Below, piece after piece: positions 12,515 to 40,169 of a DNA stretch of 40,169 bases (positions within the stretch are counted from its first letter, which is position 1; each line of letters starts with the position of its first letter). The notes below the pieces were generated by a model. The model ran no database searches. It was not told where the DNA came from and saw only the letters and a list, made by a program, of their open reading frames with translations. The stretch is from a bacterium (GTDB taxonomy: Bacteria > Patescibacteriota > Saccharimonadia > CAILAD01 > GCA-016700035): assembly GCA_020854115.1 (NCBI GenBank), contig JADZGC010000013.1, forward strand, positions 1 to 40,169, in the 5' to 3' direction. The translations under genes and the position numbers were made by a program.

Positions 12515-12530
12515 GATAATCTCCTTATTT

Positions 12531-12905: not shown

Positions 12906-12941
12906 ACCGATATTGTACCCTATAGGCACTATATATAACAA

Positions 12942-12964
12942 AAATGCCCCATGGAGGGGCATTT
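12942..12964 (-). terminator. Terminator after pilin gene 3
   Basis: AAATGCCCC/GGGGCATTT, a 9-bp stem with loop ATGGA, followed by TTTTGTT on the minus strand. It separates pilin 3 from pilins 1 and 2. Confidence 0.85.
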
Positions 12965-12982
12965 ATTGATGGTAGATATCCC

Positions 12983-13357: not shown

Positions 13358-13469
13358 GATTGTTTAGTATCTCCTAAATAATTGCTTTTACTTATGGGCA
13401 CTAATACTGCGCCGTTGCACATATTCTACGTCAGCTTCTTGGTATAAGCAAGTTATGCTTACGAAATAA

Positions 13470-13991
13470 TTATCGTAGCTGACTATTTATAAATACGAGT
13501 CCACCACTCCCAACCAACGCAACCACGATACCTATCGCAGCATATAAGATTGCGTCTTTTGCGATCTTCGTCTTCCCAGGATCGCCAGCAGAGTATACAT
13601 AAAGCATACCGGCAATGATCATAATGATCACAGCGGTAATACCAATAACATACATGAATACCTGGATTGAGTCTGTTATCAACGGTACAATGTCATACTT
13701 ATCAGTCACGCGGGGGAATATAAACTCAACCAACGAACGGGCAAGGATTGCCACAGCAAAGCCTACAGCAGTGTAGATAATTGACTGGAGCGCTTGCTTG
13801 GTCTTATCGGGTCTACCTACCGAGATTACATACTGGAAGCCGCTATACACCATCATAAATGAACCAATAACACCAACGAGGTATGTAAGGAAGCGAAATA
13901 TATTGTTTAACAGCTCTGGTAACGTGCCTGGCCCTTGTTGTAGTGTGCCCGGCACTCCTATAGCCGCTATGAGTAATTGCATCGCCCTCAT
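13470..13991 (-). CDS. Tandem two-domain T4SS pilin-like membrane protein
   Basis: A 173-residue protein with two pilin-like units in one chain. Unit 1 has GVIGSFMMVYSGFQYVISVGRPDKTKQALQ plus a second helix. Unit 2 has IGITAVIIMIIAGMLYVYSAGDPGKTKIAKD plus TILYAAIGIVV-like helix AILYAAIGIVVALV. Each repeats the helix-(S-G-x-P-x-K)-helix layout of the single-unit pilins. No classical signal peptide with an AxA site is evident. AAGGAG precedes the start at 13991, and the upstream gene ends 5 nt before it, so the two are co-transcribed. A fused pilin dimer could be a pilus-base or adaptor subunit (inference). Confidence 0.8.
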   Translation of the reverse strand: MRAMQLLIAAIGVPGTLQQGPGTLPELLNNIFRFLTYLVGVIGSFMMVYSGFQYVISVGRPDKTKQALQSIIYTAVGFAVAILARSLVEFIFPRVTDKYDIVPLITDSIQVFMYVIGITAVIIMIIAGMLYVYSAGDPGKTKIAKDAILYAAIGIVVALVGSGGLVFINSQLR

Positions 13992-13996
13992 AAATC

Positions 13997-14839
13997 TTAT
14001 GCTCCTTTAATGATTACACCCAATAGACTAAAGATAAGGGTACCACTTCCGACTATGAGGAGTGTGAGTACCGCGTAGGCGATAAGCTTTCGAGCTTGGG
14101 CAATTGCATTTGGATTACCTTGTGACGTCATGAAGCGTATGCCCGCTACAATAATGGTAATAATCGACAGGGCACCGCCAACGAACTGTAGATGCTGCAC
14201 CAAAGCAATCATGAGAGCTGGGATCGTGTCTTTATTAAACACGGTAACGTCCACGCCTAAGATTTTATTGTCGCCGGTAACTCCGGTGATTGTCAAAATA
14301 ATTCGTGCCGTCCAGAACGCCGCTATACTAGTAACTGCGCTGACTATACGCCTCTTGGATGACTTAATAGCTTCGGGTGATGCGCCAGAAACGCCCATAC
14401 CTACAACGCTTAGCATAATAATTACCGCAAAGAATACAGTAGACAAGTTGACGAGCCAATCTGCCCCCCTCTCAATGATAACCTCAATAATGTTTCGACC
14501 TGGATCAGCACCCTGACAGAGAAACTTAACGAAACTCCCGCCGTCTTGACTAATTATCCTATAGTTCGGATTGGTCGCCTCTCCACAAGTCGCACGCAGT
14601 GCTACAGGTGAAGGAGCTGGGGTGGCACCAGGCCAAGTACTCTGATTATTACAGTCTATTCCTGGCGCTACCGGACCAGCTCCGCCACCAGGGCACCCAG
14701 CGGGGGTATTTACTGCATGCGCTACGTGTTGATTTCCAGGAAATAAAACTAGCCCAAACACCAACAGAAAGCTTGCAACAATTAATAGCTTACGTATTGT
14801 CTGAATAATTCCTGGAATACCGGGAGAGCGCTTTTGCAT
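13997..14839 (-). CDS. Large pilin-like membrane protein with signal peptide and two helix-loop-helix units
   Basis: A 280-residue protein. A basic start and hydrophobic segment (residues 16-35) form a signal peptide ending near VAHA-VNT. A Cys- and Pro-rich region follows (CPGG, DCNN, TCGE, FLCQ; four cysteines, possibly two disulfides outside the cell). Two units resembling T4SS pilins come next (SGASPEAIKSSKRR and TSQGNPNAIAQARK loops between hydrophobic helices). It starts a minus-strand operon with the two-domain protein at 13470-13991. Its ATG lies 6 nt after a minus-strand TATAAT, so it is probably leaderless. It is divergent from the VirB6-like gene with only 39 nt between starts. Confidence 0.75.
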   Translation of the reverse strand: MQKRSPGIPGIIQTIRKLLIVASFLLVFGLVLFPGNQHVAHAVNTPAGCPGGGAGPVAPGIDCNNQSTWPGATPAPSPVALRATCGEATNPNYRIISQDGGSFVKFLCQGADPGRNIIEVIIERGADWLVNLSTVFFAVIIMLSVVGMGVSGASPEAIKSSKRRIVSAVTSIAAFWTARIILTITGVTGDNKILGVDVTVFNKDTIPALMIALVQHLQFVGGALSIITIIVAGIRFMTSQGNPNAIAQARKLIAYAVLTLLIVGSGTLIFSLLGVIIKGA

Positions 14840-14878: not shown

Positions 14879-17275
14879 ATGAAGAGCATAAGCAATATTA
14901 ACTCACCGTTCTCGAAAGCACTCATTGCTATATGGCTCATCGTGGTTGGATTTTTCGTATTTGTGCCCAATATTGCTAGAGCTGCCGACATTACTTCTTC
15001 GATTAGTGATGTTTCAAATAGATCAGATAATTCTTGCGAATGGATTGCCGACTCAAAGATAAGTTGTGAAGGCTATGACTTCTACTTCGTCGTGACATAT
15101 ACGGTGCAAGCTGATAAAGCGGTTTTCAGAAATATGGACGAAAACGGCAATCCTGGGAATGTCTACCTTACTGTAGCGAGGACTGGAACAGCTGCTAAGG
15201 GCATACTGACAACCAGCAATACTGGAGCAGAAACTCCAGATGATGTTTCGGTGGAACTTACAGCGAATGGGAAGATGTACGAACGCCGCATGTACGCACC
15301 CACCAATGACTTAAAGGATATTGACTGGTCAGATAGTTGGGGTGGAGCCAATTATGACAAAGCCACCGGTAAATATACTGAAAATGGAGACGCTTGGTTT
15401 CTGTGTGGACTCCTGTCTCGCGAAGGACATACATGTATAAGACAGACTACCGGGAATACTATGACTATCGATTCGGTACAGGGAGATAAGATAGAAGAAA
15501 TCTATCGCTCTATAAAAGACGGCATTGATTCAGCGGCAAATTGTAGTAGTAACTCACTCAGTTTTATCTTGTGCCCAATGCTTGATGGAATGAGAGAAGC
15601 TCTGGAGTTTCTTACTGGCAGTGGTAATGCGGGTGACAAAGGCTTTCTCGGTGACCTCTTGAATGTAAATCCATTAACCAACGGCCCGACAACACTAGAC
15701 CGAAACGGTGACACAATCGACAACTATACGTACAAAGTTTGGGCTAGCATACGAGATGTATCCTTAGGTCTTATCATTATATTTTTTGTAATTATTGTCT
15801 TTGGAAATGGTATAGGAATGGATGCCTATACCGTCAAGCGTAGTTTACCTAGACTGGCTTTTGGTGCGCTCTTCACATTTGCTTCGTTCTTCATCCTGCA
15901 AACCCTTATCGATATTAGCAATGTGTTTGGCAATGCTGTCCCGGACCTTATTCTTCGAGCCAGTGGGATTGGCGCAGGAGCCTTCGCGTTTAACTTCAAT
16001 CTTGGTGCAGGTGGCGGATTAGCAGCTATTGTACTCTTACTTATTCTCTATTTTCTCGCATTCATTGCGGTACTAATCGGGATTGCTGGACTTATCGCGC
16101 GACAGCTTATCATATATGCGCTTATATTAACGGCTCCTCTCGCATGCGTAATGTGGATCTTGCCAAATACCGAGAAGTTATTTAAGAAATGGTGGTCAAA
16201 CCTGATCAAAGTCCTGATGATGTACCCGATTGTGACTGGCATGCTGGCCATATCGGTTCTTTTCCAAAAGATTGTAGGTAATGACGACGGCGCCCCGTTT
16301 GCAGTTAGGCTTGTCGGCATGGCTGCTCCACTTATTGCGCTCATGGCAATCCCGAAGACATTTAAGATGGGTGGCGAGCTATTCGCGGCTGGCGCTGGAT
16401 TCCTTGCAGGAAGAGCAAGTGCAGGAATTGATTTTGCTAAAGGAGGAGTTAAGAAGGGTGCGAAAAGTGCGGCTAGTAGCCTGCCAAAAAGAATGGTATC
16501 AAGTGACAGGGGGCAAAAAATCGCAATGGGTCTTGGAGCTACACCCATTATTAGATCGTTCGGTGGCAAAACAGCTGCAAGAAAAGCGGCGCAATTAAAG
16601 TCTGGCCGGCTAAATGAGGCAGAGTCACTTGTGAAGGACATGTCGTCAGATCAGCTAATGTCAATCGCAAATAGAGGTAACTTCCAGGAGCGCACGGCCG
16701 CTATAGGTCAATTAGCAAAGATGGGTGACAGAAAAGCCCTAGCTAAATTAAGTCAATCAGGCGGTGCTACAGGCATGGCATATAATGCGGCCAGTGGGCG
16801 TTATGCTGGAGATTTTGGAAAAAATGTAGATCTGCGACGAATCGGTGGTTCATACACAGACATGTCAAGTTTGTCAGACGACGCACTATCTCAGCTCTCA
16901 GCGGATGCGTTTGGCTCGAATGTTATGTCAGGTCGAATAACTACGGGACAAATGACACGACTCGCAAACAATACTAGGGCCCAAAACAATATGTCATCTG
17001 AGTCATTAGCAATGCTAAGAGCATACCAAGCCGGTACATCCGAACCACAGTCTCAAGGAAATGTTGAAGCTGTCATGCAATACCTTTCAAAAGAGAGTAC
17101 TGCACCAGACTATAAAGACATTACTGTTGGCGATAAAACGGTTAATCGTGCCGCCCCACAAATTGGCACTGGTACCACGGCATACCGTGCAGGAGTAAGA
17201 GTCAGGAGAACTGGTGAAGCAGTAAGGAATGCGCCCTCTAAGGCGGCCGACAAGGTACGTGATTTCCTTAACTAA
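14879..17275 (+). CDS. VirB6/TrbL-like T4SS inner-membrane channel protein
   Basis: A 798-residue protein. A signal peptide or TM (residues 13-33) is followed by an extracellular domain with several cysteines (about 35-285). A block of about six membrane segments (290-510) contains LGLIIIFFVIIVFGNGIG, RQLIIYALILTAPLACVMWILPNTEKLFKKWW and a glycine-rich helix, the pattern of TrbL/VirB6 conjugation proteins. The last 290 residues are basic, Gly/Ala/Ser-rich and probably cytoplasmic. It would form the inner-membrane conduit through which substrates are moved by VirB4. It is first in the plus-strand T4SS operon. PrgI follows after 17 nt. Confidence 0.85.
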   Translation: MKSISNINSPFSKALIAIWLIVVGFFVFVPNIARAADITSSISDVSNRSDNSCEWIADSKISCEGYDFYFVVTYTVQADKAVFRNMDENGNPGNVYLTVARTGTAAKGILTTSNTGAETPDDVSVELTANGKMYERRMYAPTNDLKDIDWSDSWGGANYDKATGKYTENGDAWFLCGLLSREGHTCIRQTTGNTMTIDSVQGDKIEEIYRSIKDGIDSAANCSSNSLSFILCPMLDGMREALEFLTGSGNAGDKGFLGDLLNVNPLTNGPTTLDRNGDTIDNYTYKVWASIRDVSLGLIIIFFVIIVFGNGIGMDAYTVKRSLPRLAFGALFTFASFFILQTLIDISNVFGNAVPDLILRASGIGAGAFAFNFNLGAGGGLAAIVLLLILYFLAFIAVLIGIAGLIARQLIIYALILTAPLACVMWILPNTEKLFKKWWSNLIKVLMMYPIVTGMLAISVLFQKIVGNDDGAPFAVRLVGMAAPLIALMAIPKTFKMGGELFAAGAGFLAGRASAGIDFAKGGVKKGAKSAASSLPKRMVSSDRGQKIAMGLGATPIIRSFGGKTAARKAAQLKSGRLNEAESLVKDMSSDQLMSIANRGNFQERTAAIGQLAKMGDRKALAKLSQSGGATGMAYNAASGRYAGDFGKNVDLRRIGGSYTDMSSLSDDALSQLSADAFGSNVMSGRITTGQMTRLANNTRAQNNMSSESLAMLRAYQAGTSEPQSQGNVEAVMQYLSKESTAPDYKDITVGDKTVNRAAPQIGTGTTAYRAGVRVRRTGEAVRNAPSKAADKVRDFLN

Positions 17276-17292: not shown

Positions 17293-18120
17293 ATGGCACA
17301 ATATAAAGTCCCTCAAAACGTAGAGTCCGAAGACAAGCTACTTGGTCCTTTGACCATGAAGCAGTTTATCTATGCAGTCATTGGACTGGCATGGGGTGGG
17401 CTGTGGTATATGATTCTCCGCGCTGGTGGAGCCGCTGGGCTTGTGCTTGCGATCTTCGTCATCCTACCGGTATCCGGCTTCATGTTCCTCCTAGCTTTCG
17501 GGCGCCGCGAAGAACAAAGCTTCGAGAACTACCTCATCGCCCTCATCCGCTTCACTGTCGTCCCGCGCAAGCGTGTCTGGATGAAGGACACATCTGTGGA
17601 GCACGCCATCGTCGACGCGCCACCACCCCCGAAGGTACAGGAACTCACCGCCGCCGACTACGCGCAGGTCCAAAGCCGTCTGCGTCAGCTCGCGATGGTA
17701 GTGGACACACGTGGACACTTGAAGAACGAGGAAGTACAGGCACTCGATCCTACCAACCAAGCTGCTACATTCTCACAACGTGTCTTCACACCACCAAGTC
17801 TGCAGCAAGAAATAGCACCAAGCCAGCTACAAAAAGGGGATGACATCATCTCGCAAACAGAATCAGGTCAGAAGATTCAAGATGTCGGCCGAATGCTACA
17901 AAATGTTGAGCACGACGTACGCGACCAAGCTAGACAAGCCATGACTCAAGCAATCCAAGACCCATCTGCGGTACAAACACCGGCACAACCCTCCCAGCCA
18001 CAACTGAGTGATGATATACTTAAAAAGGTTATGGATACTACTGACCTATCAGTAGCCCAGGTTGCTCAGGCAGCCAACCGTGGCCAACTCCAGGCCGGAC
18101 AGCCCGTCAGTTTCCGCTAA
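17293..18120 (+). CDS. PrgI-family T4SS membrane protein (VirB3-like)
   Basis: A 275-residue protein. The N-terminal 95 residues match the PrgI family: YKVPQNVESEDKLLGPLTMKQFIYAVIG, two membrane helices (about 25-65), a FGRREEQSFENYLIALIRF segment and the VPRKRVW basic motif. PrgI takes the VirB3 position in Gram-positive-type conjugation systems and works with VirB4. The remaining 180 residues are Q/P-rich, low complexity and cytoplasmic. A terminator-like hairpin follows, so VirB6-PrgI and TraC-VirB4 may form two units. Confidence 0.9.
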   Translation: MAQYKVPQNVESEDKLLGPLTMKQFIYAVIGLAWGGLWYMILRAGGAAGLVLAIFVILPVSGFMFLLAFGRREEQSFENYLIALIRFTVVPRKRVWMKDTSVEHAIVDAPPPPKVQELTAADYAQVQSRLRQLAMVVDTRGHLKNEEVQALDPTNQAATFSQRVFTPPSLQQEIAPSQLQKGDDIISQTESGQKIQDVGRMLQNVEHDVRDQARQAMTQAIQDPSAVQTPAQPSQPQLSDDILKKVMDTTDLSVAQVAQAANRGQLQAGQPVSFR

Positions 18121-18323: not shown

Positions 18324-19178
18324 ATGGCTGACTCCGTCCAGCAAGCGCCCATTTCAGCACAAGAAGCTGAATACCAGAAATCAATTACGCCACCAAAACA
18401 GGTGCAGGATCAGCGTATGAGTACGCAGAACCACCTGATGTTTACTGAGATCAAAGACGGTATCGTTGTGATGCGTGACGGTTCGCTGCGCATGATCGTA
18501 CTCGCTAGCGCGCTCAACTTCGACCTCAAGAGCCCGCAGGAACAAGACGCGATTGAGTTTGCCTACCAAGGCTTCTTAAATGGACTTCACTTCCCAATTC
18601 AGATCGTGATTCGAAGCCGTAAGCTCGAGCTTGATGGCTATCTCGACAAGCTCGAAGTCCTGCAGGCCAATGAAAATAATCCTCTCATCTCTGGTCTGAT
18701 GGAGGACTATATTTACAATATTCAGGGCCTACTCGAGCAGGTCAATATCATGAATAAGGAATTCTACATCGTCGTGCCATACTTCATCGAGGCCGGGAAG
18801 AAGGTGAAAGACAACGCTGGTGTGAAGTTTGCCTCTCTCTTCCAAAGCAACACTGATCAAGTCCAGACCACTGAGATCTTCGAACAACGTAAGCGTGACC
18901 TTATCCAGCGCACCAACCTCGTCGCACAAGGTCTCGGTCAGATGGGAATTCGTGCAGCAGTCTTAAGCACGCAAGAAGTTATCGAGCTCTTCTACACCAG
19001 CTACAACCAAGAAGAAGCTATGACACAAAATCTCACCGATATCGATCAGATGACCACCCCAATCGTCGAACGCGGCAACCCAATGCCTCAACCTTCAGTG
19101 GCTCAAACGCAACCTGGACAAACTCCCGGGCAACCACCCATGCCACCCCAAAACCCACTCATGGGAGGAGGGCAGTAG
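18324..19178 (+). CDS. TraC/VirB4 N-terminal-domain-like T4SS protein
   Basis: A 284-residue protein corresponding to the N-terminal domain of TraC/VirB4 ATPases, encoded separately. It has MFTEIKDGIVVMRDGSLRMIVLASALNFDLKSPQEQDAI, then FAYQGFLNGLHFPIQIVIRSRKLELDGYLDKLE, the start pattern of TraC-like proteins, and ends in a P/Q-rich tail. No Walker motif is present. The next gene, VirB4, starts at a GTG that overlaps its stop, so both are made together and probably assemble. It likely anchors the ATPase to the membrane channel (inference). Confidence 0.8.
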   Translation: MADSVQQAPISAQEAEYQKSITPPKQVQDQRMSTQNHLMFTEIKDGIVVMRDGSLRMIVLASALNFDLKSPQEQDAIEFAYQGFLNGLHFPIQIVIRSRKLELDGYLDKLEVLQANENNPLISGLMEDYIYNIQGLLEQVNIMNKEFYIVVPYFIEAGKKVKDNAGVKFASLFQSNTDQVQTTEIFEQRKRDLIQRTNLVAQGLGQMGIRAAVLSTQEVIELFYTSYNQEEAMTQNLTDIDQMTTPIVERGNPMPQPSVAQTQPGQTPGQPPMPPQNPLMGGGQ

Positions 19179-21199
19179 TGGCGAAGAAGCAACAGATAGA
19201 CCCGCAGGCGCTTGAGCAGCAAGAGGCGGATCGCGTATATCGTGAGGGCGTCCTTAGTCTCCGCGACATTATTGCACCAAGCTCATTTACGATCGAAAAC
19301 AACTACCTCATCATTGGCACGCGCTATGTACGAACGCTCTTCGTATACGGCTATCCACGCACGCTCTTTACTGGATGGCTTAGTCCTATTATTAATCTCG
19401 ATGAAGTCATCGATATATCAATCAATATTATGCCGGTCGAGAGCCGCGTGATCCTCGAAAACCTCAAGAAAAAAGTAGGGCAGCTTGAAGCAAGCTACCA
19501 GATCAATGCCGAGAAGGGGAAGGTCCGTGATCCTGGACTTGAAGCCGCGCTGTCTGACGCTGAAGAGCTACGCGATCAGCTGCAAGTGGGGGAGGAGCGA
19601 TTCTTCCGTTTTGGGCTGTATTTCACTATCTACGGTAAAGACCTCGAGGAACTTGATCTCGTACAACGCAAGATCGAATCCATCCTTGGTACCAGCCTCA
19701 TCTACACCAAGCCCGCCAGTGTACAGATGGAGCAAGGCTTCAACTCTACGCTTCCGATCGGCACTGATCAGCTTGGCATCTATCGCAACATGAATACCGG
19801 CTCACTCTCGACCAGCTTCCCATTCACAACCGCTGAGCTGTCGCGCAATGAAGGAATTCTCTACGGGTTGAACCGTCACAATAACGGGCTCGTACTCTTC
19901 GATCGGTTTAGCCTTGAGAATGCAAACATGGTTGTCTTCGCGAAGTCTGGAGCGGGGAAGTCCTTTACGGTGAAGCTCGAGTGCCTGCGATCCCTCATGA
20001 TGGGTACTGAAATAATTATCGTCGACCCAGAAAACGAGTATAAGACCCTCTGTGATGCTGTCGGTGGTAGCTTCGTCAAGCTATCACTCACTAGTAATAC
20101 CCATATCAACCCCTTTGATCTCCCGAAGATCGTCGATCCCGAAGAAGCCGACAATGCTCTGCGTGCCAATATCATCATGCTCGAAGCTCTCATTCGTGTG
20201 ATGTTTAACGGACAGCTCAGTGACGCCGAGATGGGGGATCTCGATACCGCTATCATTCAAACGTATGCCAACAAGGGCATAACCAACGACCCGCTCACGC
20301 ACAACGTCGAGCCGCCAGTTATGAATGATCTCTACAATACACTCGTGCAGATGGGGAATTATGGCTCAGGTACAGGGCCACAGATCGCTGCTCGCTTACG
20401 TCGCTTCACCGAAGGTTCTTTCTCGGGTATTTTCTCCCAGCAATCAAACGTTAATCTTGATAACCGTATGGTGGTCTTCAATATCCGTGACCTCGAAGAT
20501 GAGCTCAGGCCAGTCGGCATGTTCATCGCCCTCAACTACATCTGGAATCGTATCAAGACCGATCGCAAGAAACGCATCCTCGCCGTAGACGAGGCCTGGC
20601 AGCTCATGCAATATCCTGACTCAGCGCAATTCCTCTTCTCGATCGCTAAACGCTGCCGTAAGTACTACACCGGCCTGACAACAATCACGCAGGATGTAGA
20701 AGACTTCTTGCAAAACCGACTAGGCCGCGCGGTGGTAAACAACAGCTCGCTCCAACTTCTGCTCAAACAAAACCCTGCAGCTGTCGACATCATTTCGCAG
20801 ACTTTCAAACTCACAAGTGAGGAGTCGGCTCGCTTAAGCCAATTCCCAGTAGGTGAGGGGTTGTTCTTCGCAGGCTTAAATCATGTCATTATTCGAATTC
20901 TCGCAAGCCCCATGGAAGAGCAGCTCATCACCACTAATCCGCACGATATCCTCGAGAAACGCATGAAAGAGCAGAATGATGGGGTGGCAGCCGAGGGAGC
21001 GCAGGTCATTAATAACTACGGCGAGCAGAGCAACCAAGGAGGTGGTCAGACACCCGCAACACCACAGATTGACCCAAATCCACCTCAAGAGCAAGTATCA
21101 GTCCCAGCTGAGGCCCCAGATCTAGTTCCCGCACAAGCTACCGAGATGCAGCCAGACCAAGAATACGCAGCCCCATTATTTGGAGAGGATGAGGAATAG
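19178..21199 (+). CDS. virB4: VirB4-type conjugation ATPase
   Basis: A 673-residue VirB4/TraC-family ATPase. An N-terminal domain (1-220) is followed by the motor: Walker A FAKSGAGKSFTVK (about 253), EIIIVDPENEYKTL, Walker B RILAVDEAWQLM (about 470) and the TTITQDVEDFL sensor region. VirB4 powers substrate transfer and pilus assembly in type IV secretion. The final 70 residues are Q/P-rich. It starts with GTG overlapping the preceding TAG, with GGAGGAGGG just upstream. No VirD4 coupling protein is visible in this window. Confidence 0.95.
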   Translation: MAKKQQIDPQALEQQEADRVYREGVLSLRDIIAPSSFTIENNYLIIGTRYVRTLFVYGYPRTLFTGWLSPIINLDEVIDISINIMPVESRVILENLKKKVGQLEASYQINAEKGKVRDPGLEAALSDAEELRDQLQVGEERFFRFGLYFTIYGKDLEELDLVQRKIESILGTSLIYTKPASVQMEQGFNSTLPIGTDQLGIYRNMNTGSLSTSFPFTTAELSRNEGILYGLNRHNNGLVLFDRFSLENANMVVFAKSGAGKSFTVKLECLRSLMMGTEIIIVDPENEYKTLCDAVGGSFVKLSLTSNTHINPFDLPKIVDPEEADNALRANIIMLEALIRVMFNGQLSDAEMGDLDTAIIQTYANKGITNDPLTHNVEPPVMNDLYNTLVQMGNYGSGTGPQIAARLRRFTEGSFSGIFSQQSNVNLDNRMVVFNIRDLEDELRPVGMFIALNYIWNRIKTDRKKRILAVDEAWQLMQYPDSAQFLFSIAKRCRKYYTGLTTITQDVEDFLQNRLGRAVVNNSSLQLLLKQNPAAVDIISQTFKLTSEESARLSQFPVGEGLFFAGLNHVIIRILASPMEEQLITTNPHDILEKRMKEQNDGVAAEGAQVINNYGEQSNQGGGQTPATPQIDPNPPQEQVSVPAEAPDLVPAQATEMQPDQEYAAPLFGEDEE

Positions 21200-21201: not shown

Positions 21202-24200
21202 ATGATCCCCTGGCTACACACTAGCAATCCTTCTAGGGCTCGCCGGCACAACCTAAGATCTCCTTCTTTTGGCCACGAGCGATCTACTGGTGGTAGCCTA
21301 TCAGACAAAGTCAAGAATGATAGCACAACATCACTCAACCCCACAAGTACCGGAAATACCAATCCTAATGGTTCGGGTCTGCCATCTGTAAACGAGGGTC
21401 GAGGCAAGGGAGCCGTAAGTAAGGGTGTCGACAAGGGCCTAGAACAAATAAAGAATAAGTCAAAGGGCACTCCTGTAGGAGAGGCTGCGAATCTCGCAAG
21501 TAAGGTAAAAAATACTAGTCAAACCGCAAAAAGAGAAGGAGCAGTTGCGGCAGGAGCTGATGTAGCTGCTGCCGCTGCTCGAACAGGGTTAGCCGCAACC
21601 GGCGTTGGTAAAGCCGCCAATGTCGCAATGAATGCCGCAAAAAAGCTTGGTCAGACGGTAGGTATCAATATAAAGGATAGGTACTTCTTGTATGTAGTAA
21701 TCTTCATGAGTACCTGGCAGTTTATTCTTGTTTTTTTTGTTATTATGGTCGCCGCGTCTCTATTTGGATCACCATCCAAGCTCCTAAAAACAGGCTGGTC
21801 GATTGCTAAACATTACGTAGGCCTTTCGGTGTCGACCCAGATAGACCAGGGAGTTGCTGGCAAAATGGCTTACGAAATCCCTGTTGGTAAGGATGGTCGA
21901 GCATTGGCGGCAGCCACAAACTACAATCCTGCCAGCATGCCAAAAGAGGGGACTCTAGAATACCGACTCGCAAAGATAGATTGGGAAAAAGCAAAATTCC
22001 AGTCAGTTAAACCTGATTCAAATTGCGAGATCAAAACATCCAAAGTCGTGGGGCCAGATGGTCAAGAACGAAGCGTTATTGATTCTGTAACTATTAAGGG
22101 CCAAGTCTTAAACCTAGAAGGTATTGCTAGATCAAATTGTATCGACAAAACCTATCCGATATTTAATACCATTATGCGCTCAGAATATATTCGAGAGAAC
22201 CTCAATAAAAAGCTAGGGATTAGGTATGCCTATGCTGCCCCCAGGGATAGTACTGAGATACGTGGCAAATCAGATGCACAAATCAAAGAAACGCTACGCA
22301 AGAAAACATTGAGTAGAGTATGGCAGAGTAGCGGTAAGGGTGTTGAAGGTGTAGCACCAACCACAGACGACGATACGCCCCGAAATACAAACTCAAATGT
22401 AGATAAATATATCTACCCAACAGACACTATACTTCCTTTTAGTGTTGCAAATTGCGCAAACAATTACGAGTTTCCAGAAAAGCCATCTTGGGACAACGCT
22501 ATCGCAAAAGCCCGTCACGATCTTATTTGTGGGGTACCGCCGGATCAGATTATATTTTATGCGCACATACCTCGTGAGAGTGATGCCGAGAGCACAGATC
22601 CAGCGAAAAAAGCCCGGGCACAAGCGGCCGTACTAAATACCGTATGTCAGATTTATAATCGCTATACAACAGAATTAACCGACACGGCATCAAAGAACTA
22701 TAAACAGGCTGTCAAAGATCGTATTAAGTCCGAAGCAAATGCTGCATTCTCAATTATTACTTACGATGATACAGCGAAAACATATTTTCCAAACATTAAG
22801 GAGTGGGGCACTGACTCTTATAAGGTGTTGGGTCTAGGGAAATCACAGCAATACAACTACGCGGTAAATGGTCGTCTTGCAGGCGAAACGATTTCCCCAG
22901 ATGCACTATCTAAGATATTTGGCGGTCCAAATATTCGTGGTGAAGGAATATATGCCGACACTCAAAGCAGCCGTATGATAGCAACATTTAGGAGAGTTGC
23001 AGCTGAAAACTGTACAGGGTCTGATAGTATTAACTTCACAGATCTGGCAAACGGAGTGATAGACAGGAGCTATCTAAATATATTTTACTTAACAATATAC
23101 AAAGTGCTATTTCGTGGAAGTGTAGCAAATCTAGACAGCTACAAAAGAGCAAAAGACGGAACCATAATAAATACAATTGCTGCCATGAACAAAGTAACTA
23201 TAGAGGATGTTATGAAGCGCCTCATACTTACCGCGAGTAATAACGGCACTTCTGGCGTCGAAGAAGGACCAGCAAATTTCAACAGACAGTCTATTGGCGC
23301 CCTAGCGTACAAAAACAGTCTCATTATTTCTATGGGCGGACAATTCTTCAATCAAAACGAAGCCATAGCCGCTGAAAATATATCGAACTCCATCATCGCG
23401 TATGAAGATCAATACCAGGGTCTTCTTGGGCGGATCTTCAACAGGAATAATCCTCGCTCCATCTACAGTAGGCTGCAAGTTGCCTTTACAGATTATCCAA
23501 AGAATATTCCATCAAATGTGGCTAGTCTTTTTGGAAATCTCTTCAACCCTGCACGCAATATGATTAGTGGTCGAGATTCGCTCGCATACACTCTCACCGG
23601 CAAGAGTAATGTTGCCCAAGCAGCATCAAGTCATGAGATAAATAATCTCCATATCGATCCTGCAGGCTTCCCGCCAGGATTTTACGAGGTACCAATTATC
23701 GAAAATGCACGAGCAATCGAAAAAATCATAGAACAAAATCCTACAGCATCAAGCACAATGTACCAATGGGAGCTTTGTATGCGTGAATTTATACCTGATC
23801 GTTTCCATCTCAACAATCCAGACCCAGATAATGAGCAGCAAAAGAGCTTATATAATAATTTCTGTAAAGAACTTTATGACACACAATCTCCTGGATCTAA
23901 TGGTGCCCCCAAGAAACTGTCCAATACTTCTGTGATCCAGCGTTTCACAAATAACCCCGGCAGTATAAATCTCGCCAAGAACAGTCAGGATAGGAGAGAC
24001 CTCTCGTTCATGTTCCGTGTATATCACTTCAACATCCTACAAACTGATGCACTACTCTACCTGTCAAATCCAGCGCAAGAGGACCCCACATTTAACGCTA
24101 ATAGTAGCGGTCCCGCAGAATCTGGAGAAGACGATACACCTGTCACAACAACAACCCCGACTGGCGACAGAAATGCGCCGTGTCCACCAGGCACCGCTGA

Positions 24201-24627
24201 TGCTGGCACAGGCACGAGATATGGTGTTGGCAGGATATTTGAATATTCTATGCGACTCTGTAAGGTAAATAATACGATCGTTAGCGTTACGATGGCAGCA
24301 AATCTACTTAATCTTTACAACGCCGCTGCTGCTGAAGGTATTAATCTGAGCGGTGGTGGATATCGTTCATTCGATCAGCAAGTTGCAGTTCGCAGAAAAA
24401 ATAATTGCGCAGACCTCTATACAGCCCCATCATCTTCATGTTCGCCACCTACAGCAATACCAGGCAAGTCTATGCATGAGGCTGGCGAAGCTGTAGACTT
24501 CTCGCAAGGAGGGTCGACACTGACTCGCTCATCTGGTGGATATCTCTGGATGAAGTACCACGCAAATAAGTATGGATTCTATAATCTGCCTAGTGAGCCA
24601 TGGCATTGGTCGAGTAATGGAAGGTAA
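21202..24627 (+). CDS. Large T4SS-associated membrane protein with C-terminal VanY-type carboxypeptidase domain
   Basis: A 1141-residue protein. Residues 1-155 are Gly/Ala/Ser/Lys-rich and presumably cytoplasmic. One membrane segment (about 160-190, FLYVVIFMSTWQFILVFFVIM) is followed by a very large extracellular part with scattered cysteines and a TTTTPTG linker. Residues about 1020-1141 form a VanY/LAS metallopeptidase domain with SMHEAGEAVDF (about 1089) and EPWHWS (about 1131), which supply the Zn ligands and catalytic Glu. Such enzymes trim D-Ala from peptidoglycan stems. It follows VirB4 by 2 nt, so it is made with the T4SS and may open or modify a wall where the apparatus passes. The middle 800 residues are unrecognised. 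Confidence 0.85.
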   Translation: MIPWLHTSNPSRARRHNLRSPSFGHERSTGGSLSDKVKNDSTTSLNPTSTGNTNPNGSGLPSVNEGRGKGAVSKGVDKGLEQIKNKSKGTPVGEAANLASKVKNTSQTAKREGAVAAGADVAAAAARTGLAATGVGKAANVAMNAAKKLGQTVGINIKDRYFLYVVIFMSTWQFILVFFVIMVAASLFGSPSKLLKTGWSIAKHYVGLSVSTQIDQGVAGKMAYEIPVGKDGRALAAATNYNPASMPKEGTLEYRLAKIDWEKAKFQSVKPDSNCEIKTSKVVGPDGQERSVIDSVTIKGQVLNLEGIARSNCIDKTYPIFNTIMRSEYIRENLNKKLGIRYAYAAPRDSTEIRGKSDAQIKETLRKKTLSRVWQSSGKGVEGVAPTTDDDTPRNTNSNVDKYIYPTDTILPFSVANCANNYEFPEKPSWDNAIAKARHDLICGVPPDQIIFYAHIPRESDAESTDPAKKARAQAAVLNTVCQIYNRYTTELTDTASKNYKQAVKDRIKSEANAAFSIITYDDTAKTYFPNIKEWGTDSYKVLGLGKSQQYNYAVNGRLAGETISPDALSKIFGGPNIRGEGIYADTQSSRMIATFRRVAAENCTGSDSINFTDLANGVIDRSYLNIFYLTIYKVLFRGSVANLDSYKRAKDGTIINTIAAMNKVTIEDVMKRLILTASNNGTSGVEEGPANFNRQSIGALAYKNSLIISMGGQFFNQNEAIAAENISNSIIAYEDQYQGLLGRIFNRNNPRSIYSRLQVAFTDYPKNIPSNVASLFGNLFNPARNMISGRDSLAYTLTGKSNVAQAASSHEINNLHIDPAGFPPGFYEVPIIENARAIEKIIEQNPTASSTMYQWELCMREFIPDRFHLNNPDPDNEQQKSLYNNFCKELYDTQSPGSNGAPKKLSNTSVIQRFTNNPGSINLAKNSQDRRDLSFMFRVYHFNILQTDALLYLSNPAQEDPTFNANSSGPAESGEDDTPVTTTTPTGDRNAPCPPGTADAGTGTRYGVGRIFEYSMRLCKVNNTIVSVTMAANLLNLYNAAAAEGINLSGGGYRSFDQQVAVRRKNNCADLYTAPSSSCSPPTAIPGKSMHEAGEAVDFSQGGSTLTRSSGGYLWMKYHANKYGFYNLPSEPWHWSSNGR

Positions 24628-24631
24628 GGAT

Positions 24632-26035
24632 ATGAAAAGAGTACTTAGAGCCCTACTATGCCTAATAATAACCCTTACTCCATCCATTGCTTCTGCTGCC
24701 ACCCCAAATCCTGCCGCAAAAGTTTCCCCTACGTCCAGCATCTCTGATCAACGACGTAATATTGAACGCAACCCCTTCTATGATGAGACAGCAGAAGTTG
24801 ATACCGATGCAGTTTGTAATTCTTTAGGATTATACGATCAAGGCCAAGCTTCACCATCAGCTTCGGTAGCACCATCCGCAAGTCCAACTCCAGATACAAC
24901 AGCAATCCCTGCGGGTACAGCACCTTCAGTCGATCAAATTCGTGCGAAGCTCCTTGCAATTAAGAATGTTGGTGGAGCTGCTCGAGTAGAATCGATAATC
25001 AATCATCTAGACTGGTACCAACAAGCAGGTCAAGAGGGAGATGTGCCCTGGCAGATGCTTGTGGGCATACATTTTCGTGAAGGACTACATTTCGATAATC
25101 CGAGCAACGGACAAGGTGCCTTTCAGCTATATTCTGCCTGGAGGGCTGGCGCAAGCTTTCCACCTGGGCCAATCACTAAAGAGGAATGGGTACGCCAGGC
25201 AAAGATAGCCGCCGCAACACTAAAGGGTGGTGTGAATAGCTCACCATCTCCAATAAACGTAGGTAAAACGCTTAATAAGGACACTACAGACACAAATCTT
25301 ATTAAGGACGTAATGTGGGCATATAACGGTAAGGGAGCTAGAACAAAAGCCTGGGCACTTGAATATGCAACCGAGCTAGGGTTTAACCCGCCAGATCATT
25401 ATCTCTTCGAAGGTTCTGCGTATGTTATGAATTTCTGGGATGCAGTACGCGACGGCATGAGACAATGTGCGGTCGATGGATGTTCCAGGACAAACAGCTC
25501 AGCCAACCCAGGGGCTTTCCTCTTCTATGCCGCACTCAGTGGCTACACTGGCGGTGGCGCGAATAGTAATGGCTGCGAACAGACAGGTGGTGGTTCTACC
25601 ACAGTCCCCAATGGCGATAAGATCCTAGAGATTGCACTAGCTGAAGTTGGCCATAGAGAATGGGATGAGAGAGTACTTGAATATACAACGGGCCGTCGAG
25701 AGAATTGGTGTGCAGACTTCGTGAGCTGGGTATTGAAGCAGGCAGGCACCCCATTTACTGGTGGTGGTGCGGGCGGCTGGCAAATCCCAGCGGTAAGTAA
25801 TGTGATGGAGTATCTAAGAACAAAAGGCGAGTTCCACCCGAAGGATGATGGATATATACCTCAGCCTGGTGATATATTTATCTTCAAGAGCGGAGGTCGC
25901 AGTCACACCGGGTTTGTGACAAAATATGAGAACGGTAGATTCTATACAGTAGAAGGAAATGCATCAAATCAAGTAAAAACAAGTAGTTACGACATGAACT
26001 ACTCCGGTCTGACCGGGTTTGGACACCTTAAGTAA
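24632..26035 (+). CDS. Secreted lysozyme-like plus CHAP peptidoglycan hydrolase (VirB1-like role)
   Basis: A 467-residue exported protein. A signal peptide (MKRVLRALLCLIITLTPSIASA) and a Pro/Ser-rich linker precede a lysozyme/transglycosylase-like domain (about 105-280) with PWQMLVGIHFREGLHF, where Glu149 is the candidate catalytic acid, and GQGAFQLYSAW. A C-terminal CHAP domain (about 325-467) has Cys360 in NWCADFVSWVL and His in SHTGFV. It can therefore cut both glycan and peptide of peptidoglycan, the job of VirB1 or of bifunctional conjugation hydrolases. Start 24632 has AAGGTAAGGAT upstream and lies 4 nt after the VanY gene. Confidence 0.88.
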   Translation: MKRVLRALLCLIITLTPSIASAATPNPAAKVSPTSSISDQRRNIERNPFYDETAEVDTDAVCNSLGLYDQGQASPSASVAPSASPTPDTTAIPAGTAPSVDQIRAKLLAIKNVGGAARVESIINHLDWYQQAGQEGDVPWQMLVGIHFREGLHFDNPSNGQGAFQLYSAWRAGASFPPGPITKEEWVRQAKIAAATLKGGVNSSPSPINVGKTLNKDTTDTNLIKDVMWAYNGKGARTKAWALEYATELGFNPPDHYLFEGSAYVMNFWDAVRDGMRQCAVDGCSRTNSSANPGAFLFYAALSGYTGGGANSNGCEQTGGGSTTVPNGDKILEIALAEVGHREWDERVLEYTTGRRENWCADFVSWVLKQAGTPFTGGGAGGWQIPAVSNVMEYLRTKGEFHPKDDGYIPQPGDIFIFKSGGRSHTGFVTKYENGRFYTVEGNASNQVKTSSYDMNYSGLTGFGHLK

Positions 26036-26742
26036 TGACTCAATCAAAACTTTTTAGAAACGTTATCATATCCCTAGTGGCGCTCATAGCTGCCGTTGGT
26101 ATTGGATATATATACTATCAATCAACAAACCTACTCTTGTCGAACTCGAATGTTGACTCAGGTACCATTCCAAGTTCGACTATAAGCATTCTTCTAAACT
26201 TCAATAAGGATATTGACCCATCGCAAAATCTCGACGAAGTAGTGACTGTAAGCCCATCCCTACAGAGACAATCAATACGCGTGAATAAAAAACAGCTAGA
26301 AATAATCTACGACTACCTTGATGCAAATATTGATTATGAAATTAAACTAAAGAATTTAAAGAGTACTGATGGATTATTTTTGTCTCAGTCGATAAAATTC
26401 AAGACCTCCTATGTACCATATAATCTCCAATCTAAGGATCAACAAAAGCAAGCCCTAGAGGATACAAATAAAGAGTTACGTAATTTCCCAATCCTCAATG
26501 AATTACCATACGAAGAGGAGCGCTTTAAGATAGAGGGTGATATCTCCGCAGATCAGCAAAGTATTGAATATACAATTACCTTATTTGCAATTCTTAATAG
26601 AGAGGATCAGACGGCCCAATACCGCGCCGACCTAAAGGCCTTTAAGGCAGCTTCCCTAAAATGGCTAACCGATCAGAATGTAGACGTAAGCAAAGCAAAG
26701 ATTACCTACATCCCAGAGGATCCTGATAGTATTAGCCAATAA
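26035..26742 (+). CDS. Single-pass membrane protein with SbsA/Big_5-like Ig domain
   Basis: A 235-residue protein of unknown function. One N-terminal membrane helix (8-28) is followed by a beta-rich region, SSTISILLNFNKDIDPSQNLDEVVTVSPSL...NIDYEIKLKNLKSTDG, which resembles Ig-like SbsA/Big_5 domains, and an alpha/beta C-terminal part. The start codon overlaps the previous stop (TAATG), so it is the last gene of the T4SS operon and possibly a VirB8-like or structural surface component; this is inference from position. The last 11 nt overlap the end of the convergent dciA-like gene. Confidence 0.7.
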   Translation: MTQSKLFRNVIISLVALIAAVGIGYIYYQSTNLLLSNSNVDSGTIPSSTISILLNFNKDIDPSQNLDEVVTVSPSLQRQSIRVNKKQLEIIYDYLDANIDYEIKLKNLKSTDGLFLSQSIKFKTSYVPYNLQSKDQQKQALEDTNKELRNFPILNELPYEEERFKIEGDISADQQSIEYTITLFAILNREDQTAQYRADLKAFKAASLKWLTDQNVDVSKAKITYIPEDPDSISQ

Positions 26743-27007: not shown

Positions 27008-28057
27008 TTATTTTCTCCTCGTCAGATCAATTGTTTGCGCAGGAAGCTCAAGTCGCCTGTCGATATCTGCCGTAGTAATGACAGTCTGTACATCCTTCAG
27101 AACGTCAACTAAGAGATGGCGCCGGGACTCATCAAGCTCGCTAAAAACATCATCTAGGAGTAGGGTAGGGGTCATTCCATCGCGCTTCTCGCGAATATAT
27201 AACACTTCACACAATTTCAAGGCAAGTAGTGTGGTACGATTTTCGCCGCGCGAAGCGGTTTCATGAAATAATACTTCATTGCGATATAGTTGCCAGTCCT
27301 CACGATGGGGGCCGGTTGAGGTTGTGCCGATGGCGATGTCGCGCGCACGATTATCATGTAAGCGACGCAGGAAGTCACTAGAGCGTTCTTTGTAGCTCAG
27401 ACTAGTACGAGGGCGTTCGCCAGCGATATGCTCAATGTAGCGCTGTAGCTGCGGCTCAAGCCATACGAGTGCTTGCGAGCGAGCATTATAAATTGCTTCG
27501 GCCGGCTCAGCAAGCTGGGTATCGAGAATGAAGAGTTGATCTTCAAGCCGCCTGACGGGGGATCGCTTATTCTGGTAGAGTAGTGCATTCCGTTGTTTGA
27601 TAAGCCGGCGATAGAGTATGAGCGAGCGTCTATATGGTTCACTCGTCTGCGCAAGCAGCATATCCATATACTGCCGACGAAGTGCCGGAGTACCACCGAG
27701 TAATTGTAAGTGTCCAGGTTCAAATAGCACCACCGGATGTAATCCGAGGAGTGTGTGTCGACTAATACCGACCTCATTACGCAGAAAGCGCTTCTGACGC
27801 CGAGGCAGCAGTCGATATACTACCGAGAGAATCTCATCTTCGTATTCGGCATCAACTCGAAAACCGTCTTGATGCTCAGTAATGAGAGTGCTATCATCGG
27901 CACGAAATGATTGCCCAGTAGACGCAACATAAATCGCCTCAAGAATATTTGTCTTGCCGGTCGCGTTTGGACCCAGTATCACCGTCACGCGTTCTTCAAG
28001 CTCGAGAGTTAACGTCTCATACGAGCGGAAATGTGTAAGGTGCAAGCGCTTTAACAT
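27008..28057 (-). CDS. recF: DNA replication and repair protein RecF
   Basis: A 349-residue SMC-like ABC ATPase: LTHFRSYETLTLELEERVTVILGPNATGKTNILEAI (Walker A at residues 29-36), the RRQYMDMLLAQ segment, TSTGPHREDW (RecF signature) and LLLDDVFSELDESR (Walker B). RecF helps RecO and RecR load RecA at gaps. It lies 8 nt after dnaN with AAGGAG before its start and is followed with no gap by the dciA-like gene, as in the classical dnaA-dnaN-recF order. Confidence 0.97.
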   Translation of the reverse strand: MLKRLHLTHFRSYETLTLELEERVTVILGPNATGKTNILEAIYVASTGQSFRADDSTLITEHQDGFRVDAEYEDEILSVVYRLLPRRQKRFLRNEVGISRHTLLGLHPVVLFEPGHLQLLGGTPALRRQYMDMLLAQTSEPYRRSLILYRRLIKQRNALLYQNKRSPVRRLEDQLFILDTQLAEPAEAIYNARSQALVWLEPQLQRYIEHIAGERPRTSLSYKERSSDFLRRLHDNRARDIAIGTTSTGPHREDWQLYRNEVLFHETASRGENRTTLLALKLCEVLYIREKRDGMTPTLLLDDVFSELDESRRHLLVDVLKDVQTVITTADIDRRLELPAQTIDLTRRK

Positions 28058-28065
28058 ACAGCTCC

Positions 28066-29169
28066 TTAGCTACGCAGAGGCATAATCAAGTGCAGACTTT
28101 GTTGATTGTCCCTTGGTTGTAAGGGGACAACGACACAGGGATCAAGCTTCTCATTGAGACGGATCTCCACTTGTGGCTCAGAGTAAGCGCCTAATGCATC
28201 AAGCAAGAACCGGGCATTTAGCGAGATCTCAGTTGCATCACCCTTCAGCTCGATCGGGACTTCAGATGTATTTTGTCCTACCTGCGCTGCCTCGGCGTAA
28301 ATTTTCATCAAGCCTTGCTCTGCCGTTACGCGGACTGTATGAGCGCTCTCGCGCGCAAACACTCCGGCAAGCCTAGTTGCTGCCATCAGCTCATCACGCT
28401 GACAGGTGAGAGTTGTTTTGGATTCGGTGGGGATAATCTGGGTATAGTTTGGAAAATTACCTTCAATGAGTCGCGAGATAAGGGTAATGTCTCCAGATGT
28501 AAACTTAATCTCGTTTTCGCCAACTATCAGCGATACTTCCTCTTGTTCATCAGGGTTGATCAGTCGAATCACTTCCTGGACCGTACGGATCGGCAGGATA
28601 GATTGAAAGCTCGGTATATCCTTCAACACAACTTTTTCTTCTGCAAGACGATAACTATCAGTTGCTGCAAGCGTCAGTGTAGACTTATCTGTATGAATAT
28701 ACACGCCTGCGAGTACAGGACGTGACTCATCAAGTGATGCTGCCTTAGATACGCGCTCAAGCAGGTCTTTAAATAATTGCCCTGGTAGTGTGATAGATTG
28801 TTTCGCATCGACGGTCGGTATAGCCGGGAACTCCTCGCTTGCGATACCTTGGATACTTGCCTGTGTATGGGCTGCGGATATCTCGAGGGTGTCACCATTA
28901 CTGACGAGTTGCAATTTATCACTTTGCAGACCCTGTACCACCTCATTCAAGAGGCGAGCGGGGACCGAAGTGCTTCCGGTTTGCTCGATTTTACAACCAA
29001 TCGATACGGTCAGAGCTATCTCGAGATTTGTTGCTGACAGGGTGAGTGTGCCATCATGCGCATCGAGAAGAATATTAGCGAGTATCGGTAGACTCGTCCG
29101 TGAACCGACTACTCGACTCACCACATTAATGGCTTTTGCAAACTTTTCTTGTGAGAGTGAAATCTTCAT
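28066..29169 (-). CDS. dnaN: DNA polymerase III sliding clamp (beta subunit)
   Basis: A 367-residue beta clamp with the three repeated clamp domains: MKISLSQEKFAKAINVVSRVV...LPILANILLDA at the N-terminus, RPVLAGVYIH and ATDSYRLAEEKV in domain 2, and HLIMPLRS at the C-terminus (the usual end is MPMR-L). It forms a ring that tethers polymerase III to DNA. It follows dnaA across a 353-nt gap that is the candidate replication origin, and precedes recF. Confidence 0.97.
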   Translation of the reverse strand: MKISLSQEKFAKAINVVSRVVGSRTSLPILANILLDAHDGTLTLSATNLEIALTVSIGCKIEQTGSTSVPARLLNEVVQGLQSDKLQLVSNGDTLEISAAHTQASIQGIASEEFPAIPTVDAKQSITLPGQLFKDLLERVSKAASLDESRPVLAGVYIHTDKSTLTLAATDSYRLAEEKVVLKDIPSFQSILPIRTVQEVIRLINPDEQEEVSLIVGENEIKFTSGDITLISRLIEGNFPNYTQIIPTESKTTLTCQRDELMAATRLAGVFARESAHTVRVTAEQGLMKIYAEAAQVGQNTSEVPIELKGDATEISLNARFLLDALGAYSEPQVEIRLNEKLDPCVVVPLQPRDNQQSLHLIMPLRS

Positions 29170-29522
29170 AATTTCTTAAAATCCCCCTGTCCTTTATTTC
29201 TTATATATATTAATGGTAGTGGTGGTATTGGGCTGTGTGGACAGTGGGGAAAAGCTCCGAAAAGCGCTTCTTTGATCTGGAGAATATTTTGTTGTAACTG
29301 TGGAGAGGGTGTACATAAGGTCGGGGAGGCGGAGGGGAGAGAGATGGGGAGAGTTTTGAACCCTGTAGCTACGCTGTGCAAAACCACCCACTTGTCCGCA
29401 ATTCATCCTTAGCTTGTCTACAAGTCTTCCCCGTATAACCCACAAACTTTTCCGCAGATGTTTCCCCAAGTTATCCACAGAACTGTGGACAAAAACCGAA
29501 CCATCTTCTCGGTCTGATAGGC
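29170..29522. other. Candidate chromosomal origin (oriC), dnaA-dnaN intergenic region
   Basis: This 353-nt gene-free region holds a perfect DnaA box TTATCCACA (29471-29479), a facing near-box TGTGGACAA (29484-29492), and weaker matches TGTGGACAG (29236-29244), TGTGGAGAG (29299-29307) and TTGTCCGCA (29392-29400). An AT-rich stretch with TTATATATATTAAT (about 29191-29214) at the dnaN side could be the unwinding element. The centre is G-rich on the plus strand. Confidence 0.7.
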
Positions 29523-30923
29523 TCATGAGCTAAAAACCCTTTCCTGCGTAATGCGTTGTCGCACGTCCTGAATATCGCGGATAATCTCGTCTTTTTTAGA
29601 CACCATCGTCTCGATTTTTTCGTATCCATACATGATTGTTGTGTGGTCGCGTCCACCTAGATGTGAGCCAATCTGAGGAAATGACAAGTCAAGCTCGCTC
29701 CTTAGGAGGTACATCGTGATTTGGCGAGGCATGACGATATCCTTACTACGCTTCTTGCCAAGGATATCGTCAGCGCTCACTCCGTAGTAGCGAGCCACCT
29801 CACTAATAACCTGTTTAGGACTCATCTTACGTCGAGTCGATGTGGGTTGACCCTGCCCGAGCACTTCTTCTACTACTTCAAGGGTGGCTTGGAGGTTGTG
29901 AAGCTCGCAATACATCAGCACTCGATTGAAGCCCCCTTCGAGCTCGCGGATATTGGCAGAAATCTTATCAGCAATCGCTTCAGCTACTTCCATCGTAATA
30001 GCGAAGCGCTTGGCCTCGGCCTTTGACTGAATAATTGCCACACGAGTTTCGAGGTCTGGCGGCTGCATATCCACAACCATCCCCCATTCGAAGCGACTAC
30101 GGAGGCGTTCTTCAAGTTCAGGAATCTCCTTTGGTGGACGGTCAGAACAGATCACAATCTGTTTATTGGACTGGTGAAGGCTGTTGAAAGTGTGGAAAAA
30201 CTCTTCTTGGGTGGTTTCTTTCTTCTTAATGAATTGAATATCGTCGACAAAGAGCACATCGACTTCTCGGTATTTATTTGTGAATGCTTCTGATTTACGC
30301 ACTGAATCCACAAATGATTTATAAAACTCTTCGATAGTAATGTAGAGAAGCTCTAGGTTTGGGTTAAGGCGCTTTATCTCACCGTACATTGCCCACATCA
30401 AGTGGGTTTTGCCAACACCAGCTGGACCGTACAAGAAAAGCGGATTGTAGTTCGTGCCTGGCTTCTCTGCTACGAGTTGGCCGGCAGAGTAGGCGAGGCG
30501 ATTAGATGATCCGACGACGAAGTTTTGAAAGTTGTATCGCCCTAAGAGATGGTTTTGCTTGTCGAAAATATTTGACTGAGGTTGAGGAGTGTCGATATTC
30601 TGATCGTTTGGGGACGTGAAGAGTGCTTCAGGTTGGGAGTGTAACTTTTTCTTAGGCGCAGTTACTACCTTATAGATAAGTTTTGTGAGCTTCGGAAAGT
30701 GAATACGTAAGGAGTCGATAATGGTTGTCTCGAAACGAGCCTTGATCTGCGCACTCGAGAAAGGATTGGGGACTGAAATCGTAGCCTCTGATTCATCTGA
30801 TGAAATAGCCATCAGGTTTGTAGGCTGCAAAAAAGTCTTGAAGCTATGACTCGTGACTGAGACTTCAAGCTCTCCTAAAACGCGTTGCCAAATAGAACCT
30901 AGGTCTGGGGCTGGTGCACCCAT
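29523..30923 (-). CDS. dnaA: Chromosomal replication initiator protein DnaA
   Basis: A 466-residue DnaA. Domain I (IWQRVLGELEVSVTSHSFKTFLQPT) is followed by a low-complexity linker, the AAA+ domain (LYGPAGVGKTHLMWA at about 170, VDVLFVDDIQF at about 230) and the C-terminal DNA-binding domain with GGRDHTTIMYGYEKI. DnaA binds DnaA boxes at oriC and melts DNA. The ATG at 30923 is chosen because AGGAGG lies 5 nt upstream; a GTG at 30929 is too close to that site. DnaA boxes directly upstream suggest autoregulation. Confidence 0.97.
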   Translation of the reverse strand: MGAPAPDLGSIWQRVLGELEVSVTSHSFKTFLQPTNLMAISSDESEATISVPNPFSSAQIKARFETTIIDSLRIHFPKLTKLIYKVVTAPKKKLHSQPEALFTSPNDQNIDTPQPQSNIFDKQNHLLGRYNFQNFVVGSSNRLAYSAGQLVAEKPGTNYNPLFLYGPAGVGKTHLMWAMYGEIKRLNPNLELLYITIEEFYKSFVDSVRKSEAFTNKYREVDVLFVDDIQFIKKKETTQEEFFHTFNSLHQSNKQIVICSDRPPKEIPELEERLRSRFEWGMVVDMQPPDLETRVAIIQSKAEAKRFAITMEVAEAIADKISANIRELEGGFNRVLMYCELHNLQATLEVVEEVLGQGQPTSTRRKMSPKQVISEVARYYGVSADDILGKKRSKDIVMPRQITMYLLRSELDLSFPQIGSHLGGRDHTTIMYGYEKIETMVSKKDEIIRDIQDVRQRITQERVFSS

Positions 30924-30956
30924 CCTCACCTCCTTTTGTTATACCTATCTTAGCCT

Positions 30957-39503: not shown

Positions 39504-39581
39504 TGCGTGGTCTTTTGGCGAATGCGCCCGAAGAAGTAAATACATAATCCGGGGTAGCTCAGCGGTAGAGCAGTTGGCTGT

Positions 39582-40128: not shown

Positions 40129-40169
40129 TAACCAATTGGTCGCCGGTTCGAATCCGGCCCCCGGAGCCA

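Follow-up and report, generated by a model that had tools for sequence, protein, structure and literature searches.

The DNA analysed here (hereafter the window) comprises the 40,169 nucleotides (nt) of contig C13 (JADZGC010000013.1) of a 790 kb genome of the class Saccharimonadia. It carries a type IV secretion system (T4SS) locus, which adjoins replication-initiation genes and ends in three genes (21202-26742) encoding a giant scaffold protein (P0001), a secreted lysozyme-like/CHAP hydrolase (P0002) and an anchored Ig-like protein (P0003). In window coordinates the locus contains:

12134-14839, minus strand: array of five T4SS pilin (VirB2-like) genes (12134-12547, 12531-12962, 12983-13357, 13470-13991 and 13997-14839) with seven pilin domains (PF18895, T4SS_pilin, E 7e-22 to 4e-8, all above the cut-off)
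14879-17275, plus strand: VirB6-like polytopic membrane protein (conserved position, several transmembrane (TM) segments, phmmer matches in relatives)
17293-18120, plus strand: VirB3/PrgI (PF12666, E 3e-14, above the cut-off)
18324-19178, plus strand: TrsD-like protein (NF041427, E 0.001, below its cut-off; kept directly before virB4 across the class)
19178-21199, plus strand: VirB4 ATPase (NF045971, E 2.7e-113, above the cut-off; P-loop_TraG, E 5e-27)
21202-24627, plus strand: P0001, giant scaffold protein of 1141 residues (open reading frame (ORF), hydropathy, Pfam)
24632-26035, plus strand: P0002, secreted lysozyme-like/CHAP hydrolase (predicted signal peptide, CHAP PF05257, weak lysozyme profile)
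26035-26742, plus strand: P0003, TM-anchored Ig-like protein (AlphaFold2 model and Foldseek)
27008-30929, minus strand: recF-dnaN-dnaA, convergent neighbours outside the operon (recF and dnaN named by inspecting translations; dnaA, 29523-30929, assigned from position only)

The locus is the oriC-linked T4SS of Saccharimonadia. A monoderm-type VirB4, PrgI above the cut-off, the pilin array and the adjacency of recF and dnaN assign it to the MPF_FATA-type T4SSs of Patescibacteria, with VirB6 and TrsD recognised only from their position, their membrane pattern and weak profile matches. The seven PF18895 matches of the pilin array are the only ones in the genome, and the array is divergent from the plus-strand run that starts with the VirB6-like gene (ORF opening at 14834, probable ATG at 14879), whose product had no match in the Pfam search and a weak one in NCBIfam. 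For the genes behind virB4, a preliminary description of this DNA had given gaps of 2 nt and 4 nt and an overlap of 1 nt, and these proved exact when the coordinates were rechecked: VirB4 ends at 21199 and the giant gene starts at 21202, the giant gene ends at 24627 and the ATG of P0002 that begins the signal peptide lies at 24632 (an alternative in-frame ATG is found upstream at 24572), and position 26035 is both the end of P0002 and the beginning of the ATG of P0003. Scanning the operon for promoters and terminators yielded site counts no higher than in shuffled sequences.

The giant protein consists of an N-terminus that is basic, Ala/Gly-rich and about 160 residues long, a single TM segment (about residues 161-190; hydropathy maximum 2.5, no second comparable segment), a core (about 190-962), a Thr/Ser/Pro-rich linker and a C-terminal catalytic domain, here called the tip. 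Profiles delimit two parts of it:

23203-23787, plus strand: class-wide module of the giant, residues about 668-862 (profile A10, E 5e-56 here)
24283-24612, plus strand: VanY/LAS-type zinc peptidase tip, residues 1028-1137 (PF02557, E 8.6e-11)

The tip scores 42.2-45.9 bits against PF02557 (cut-off 25) and shares with the VanY/LdcB/LAS metallopeptidases the zinc-binding motifs SxHxxGxAxD and ExWH, which read as intact: SMHEAGEAVD (H1092, D1099) and EPWH (E1132, H1135), with H1092, D1099 and H1135 as candidate ligands. It differs from these enzymes in terminating a giant T4SS-linked protein, it lies far below the cut-offs of the NCBIfam VanY_BG and LdcB models, and among the sequences compared here its nearest relatives are domains within other proteins of Saccharimonadia. 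The PF02557 family takes in L,D-carboxypeptidases and endopeptidases besides D,D-carboxypeptidases, and the exact specificity of the tip is not readable from the motif. The D,D-carboxypeptidase of the preliminary description is therefore a family name only, and an enzyme with carboxypeptidase activity alone would leave a wall unperforated. VanY was the sole domain matched in the giant; the Pfam and NCBIfam scans found no glycosidase domain, so the giant lacks the SLT or lysozyme domain of a VirB1-type protein.

The core (about 770 residues) has no relative in PDB, Pfam, PHROG or NCBIfam, which agrees with the earlier remark that some 800 residues of the giant are unrecognised; the significant matches of the giant's profile in PDB are M23 peptidases and stem from the tips of its relatives. 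The proposal that this part is a contact module gained nothing from structure prediction, since AlphaFold2 (residues 150-1141, eight sequences) returned a confidence score (pLDDT) of 35 and no usable fold. Many, though not all, giants carry behind the module an AxA motif resembling a signal-peptidase site (residues about 805-807, window 23614-23622), followed by a YGxxxxGF(T)xxE-like block; the motif is a possible processing site, at which the catalytic end might be released.

The N-terminus of P0002 reads by inspection as a signal peptide (MKRVLRALLCLIITLTPSIASA). Its C-terminal CHAP domain (PF05257, residues 356-443, E 3e-12; C360, H425, E441/N443) also matches PHROG phage endolysin profiles (E 4e-12). 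The lysozyme-like domain, with E150 as candidate catalytic Glu, had no match in Pfam, SLT included, and a four-sequence profile of this half gave weak matches to goose-type lysozyme (E 0.0065) and MltF (E 0.15); a comparison with Phage_lysozyme2 gave no link (hhalign probability 0.7%). In P0003, the Ig domain is under the Pfam cut-off (Big_5, E 0.023), and the AlphaFold2 model (pLDDT 73) has a TM segment, an Ig-like sandwich and a small C-terminal beta-beta-alpha-beta domain. Foldseek matched the model to CopC/SbsC-type Ig folds (E about 1e-4 to 1e-3), and VirB8 (TM segment plus NTF2-like fold) was accordingly discarded as an identity for this protein, homologues of which stand last between virB4 and recF in the relatives. 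Among the domain labels of the preliminary description, VanY stands above its cut-off and CHAP is clear, whereas the lysozyme-like and Ig labels are less secure than that description suggested.

To place these genes in a wider context, we took the DNA behind virB4 from about 50 related genomes, mostly metagenome-assembled genomes (MAGs), with genes called mechanically by a script; 41 intervals, the window's included, were complete from virB4 to recF (bounded slots). Fifty-six of the 61 related genomes encode VirB4, and the order VirB6-VirB3-TrsD-VirB4-giant-hydrolase(s), then recF, is kept across many families of the class. All 41 bounded slots encode at least one hydrolase-type domain, so the occurrence of hydrolases behind virB4 is not due to chance, and the view that this T4SS operon has dedicated peptidoglycan-hydrolase genes is borne out. 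In 38 of the 41 a domain of a peptidoglycan-tied family scores above its curated cut-off; the three weak slots have a Glucosaminidase at 22.9 bits (below 30.2; G007), a C39-like cysteine peptidase (G032) and an M23 domain at 25.6 bits (below 28.7; G046). The families include Phage_lysozyme2, M23, CHAP, VanY, M74, Glucosaminidase, Amidase_2, SLT/SLT_2, GH3, GDSL esterase and others. Phage_lysozyme2, the commonest slot enzyme, occurs in 29 genomes, 24 of which encode it in the slot; CHAP proteins, about 390 residues long, occur in every genome, mostly away from the slot. For most classes, an earlier study that searched with VirB1 profiles describes VirB1 homologues as 'not highly associated with VirB4' (PMC12102498); the hydrolase-type domains of the bounded slots belong mostly to families other than those that such profiles target.

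A profile built from 11 giants of the window's order and iterated reaches the slot genes of other families through one module (about residues 665-860), for which the class-wide profile A10 was made. In the gene set, A10 matches 37 non-redundant proteins: the first gene behind virB4 encodes 33 of them, two lie at slot positions 5 and 6, and two are on contigs without virB4. Neither A10 nor the core profile found a match outside the class among 192 genomes drawn from the phylum. Being tied to the slot and restricted to the class, the module marks the giant as a T4SS-linked component of Saccharimonadia and not a chance neighbour.

Some slots are organised differently. One genome (G044, L068:2049-14069) has a seemingly duplicated slot, with a giant of 1059 residues, a GH3 plus Phage_lysozyme2 protein of 999 residues, a further giant-like gene that has M23, and one more lysozyme. 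In rumen and gut Saccharibacteria (L085-L149) many MAG slots open with a shorter protein (about 300-490 residues) that is not of the giant type, and often include a gene for a protein of exactly 505 residues. Three slot genes (L041:8762-10513, L050:8833-10770 and L152:5158-6882) have GDSL/SGNH esterase domains fused to SLT or Phage_lysozyme2, which could strip O-acetyl groups that shield the wall from lysozyme.

Within the window's order, the cores of the giants are 22-26% identical over the longer alignable stretches and the C-terminal end differs. The tip is VanY in the window, G005 and G009, M23 in G002, G003, G015 and, partially, G011, and M74 in G004 and weakly in G006; none was recognised in G007, which belongs to the same genus as G009. 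Among all giants we counted 8 VanY, 10 to 12 M23 and 1 to 2 M74 tips. On a VirB4 tree of the same order with outgroups, at least five tip changes are needed among 11 labelled genomes (four if G007 is omitted), a rough count given the few genomes and some unresolved inner branches. The VanY tip of the window shares 58% identity with a VanY domain carried by a different slot gene in G011, where the giant itself has an M23 tip; identity is 55% with a fragment in G015, 50% with the tip of G034 from a separate order (45-58% overall, against cores at 22-26%) and 36% (64 residues) with that of G005, a member of the window's order. As catalytic domains usually diverge more slowly than scaffolds, the gap in identity between tip and core is not in itself proof of exchange; stronger signs that the tip has had a separate history are the ranking of its relatives by identity and the change of carrier gene. 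Three giants from a single family (G054, G055 and G057; L157:2841-7289, L166:5324-9895 and L156:6277-9948) have one or two Exo_endo_phos domains of the DNase-I superfamily, with QE and GDFN motifs, between the module and an M23 tip; the scaffold can therefore bear more than wall enzymes. Proteins with the same Exo_endo_phos and M23 combination, resembling those of the three giants, are also encoded elsewhere in G054 and G055.

On balance, we lean towards the reading that the genes at 21202-26742 form a T4SS-dedicated, modular wall-opening cassette used on the host, with or without use on the producer itself. The giant would be bitopic, with the basic N-terminus inside, one TM segment and about 950 residues outside, and its conserved core would probably dock on or beside the T4SS and keep the catalytic zinc peptidase outermost. 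P0002, with its signal peptide, and the anchored P0003 would complete a set that cuts the wall locally, in its glycan strands as well as its stem peptides, and might thereby let the T4SS channel or pilus through at a cell-to-cell junction; the VirB1-type wall-opening function would be divided here between the anchored giant with its peptidase and the secreted P0002. The exchange of the tip between relatives while the scaffold stays suggests that the wall of the host is the target that drives it, and the exchange may reflect host wall chemistry. Opening of the own wall during assembly may well take place in addition. The host junction is the likeliest site of action, because the exchanged enzymes are predicted to be displayed outwards and because in Southlakia epibionticum both the T4SS (PMC10633639) and the peptidase and lysozyme homologues behind virB4 (PMC12102498) are reported to be essential for epibiotic growth on the host. 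The comparative pattern, i.e., catalytic exchange on a kept scaffold and nuclease-like additions on three scaffolds, likewise favours an outward-facing, partner-directed role.

Several points weigh against this reading. Apart from the roughness of the tip-change count and the lack of a usable model of the giant, some giants have no recognised tip. The organism encodes its own transpeptidases, and an own wall is therefore very likely present. The VirB1-type enzymes of monoderm conjugation systems, which are also multidomain, are described as serving the machine's own wall (PMC12102498). The actinobacterial hosts supposed in the preliminary description find no footing in the same-order relatives, which are uncultured MAGs, some from lakes, and none of which has a known host.

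It is possible, if rather unlikely, that the enzymes act on no peptidoglycan but the producer's own, which they would open for T4SS assembly in the manner of TraG of pIP501 or PrgK of pCF10. The position of the genes relative to virB4 equals that of virB1 in monoderm systems, the putative glycosidase/CHAP layout of P0002 is the one described for monoderm VirB1 (PMC12102498), the transpeptidases are present, and the signal peptide and TM anchors put the enzymes first at the producer's surface. Assembly through the own wall, however, needs neither the exchange of tips between close relatives on a kept scaffold nor the DNase-I-superfamily domains of three scaffolds, which fit poorly with that task alone, and the CHAP enzymes are kept in all genomes but mostly elsewhere than in the slot. 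More doubtful is a role in food gathering, in which surface-displayed lytic enzymes would free wall fragments, DNA and nutrients from the host and the channel would be secondary. The diversity of slot genes, including hydrolases, GDSL esterases, GH3 and DNase-I-superfamily domains, and the lack of most biosynthesis in Saccharibacteria (PMC10633639) would agree with such effectors, but both scaffold and position go with VirB4, P0002 bears a signal peptide of its own and is thus probably exported by Sec, and secretion as an effector is unlikely for a giant with a TM anchor, which makes this explanation improbable. That the three genes serve general envelope maintenance and lie between virB4 and recF by chance is very improbable, for although intergenic gaps alone do not prove a shared function and oriC-proximal genes tend towards stable order, the module is almost confined to the slot and at least one hydrolase is found in every bounded slot even where the families differ.

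With the T4SS of S. epibionticum ML1 (SEML1_0006-0019; Wang et al. 2023, PMC10633639; Quinonero-Coronel et al. 2025, PMC12102498), the locus shares the position near dnaA, the VirB3/VirB4/VirB6/TrsD-like set, the VirB2-like pilin array and the peptidase and lysozyme homologues directly downstream of virB4. The oriC-linked position, the pilin array, the absence of a relaxase from most such loci and the hydrolase homologues behind virB4 in that one species are thus already published. Monoderm T4SSs are known to need local wall opening, the VirB1 function (PMC12102498), and the VirB1 proteins TraG (pIP501), PrgK (pCF10) and TcpG (pCW3) are, like the enzymes described here, peptidoglycan hydrolases encoded with VirB4. 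Their combination of a glycosidase with CHAP in one exported protein may recur in P0002, where CHAP is clear and the lysozyme-like half is a weak profile match; P0002 differs in that this half has no Pfam SLT match, and the window adds a membrane-anchored scaffold of 1141 residues with a zinc-peptidase tip and a core of no known family. Phage endolysins and tail lysozymes resemble the system in the CHAP match to PHROG endolysins, in the Phage_lysozyme2 domains of the slots and in the exchange of catalytic modules, whereas the genes of the window are chromosomal, T4SS-linked and include an anchored scaffold, in an operon without phage genes. We found no description of the scaffold family or of tip exchange in the literature searched (mostly open-access main texts), and priority for either is therefore not certain.

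More tentatively, the slot might be a host-range cassette of Saccharimonadia, in which a T4SS-docked scaffold with exchangeable enzymes, i.e., zinc peptidases, sometimes together with DNase-I-superfamily nuclease or phosphatase domains, displayed at the contact site, would decide which host walls open. The T4SS is essential in one species. A T4SS-tied scaffold family with exchangeable wall-cutting tips supplies named genes and residues for testing how it crosses two walls and how epibiotic Patescibacteria reach into a host cell, and host specificity becomes testable from genome sequence by comparing slot content with host wall chemistry.

A group I intron (Rfam RF00028, 39858-40121, 80 bits) splits a tRNA gene at the contig end (window 39550-40169). 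A small ORF in the 5' part of the intron (39612-39914), which had no match in the Pfam search, reads as an HNH endonuclease (CxxC ... HHRDSSK ... CANCHREIH).

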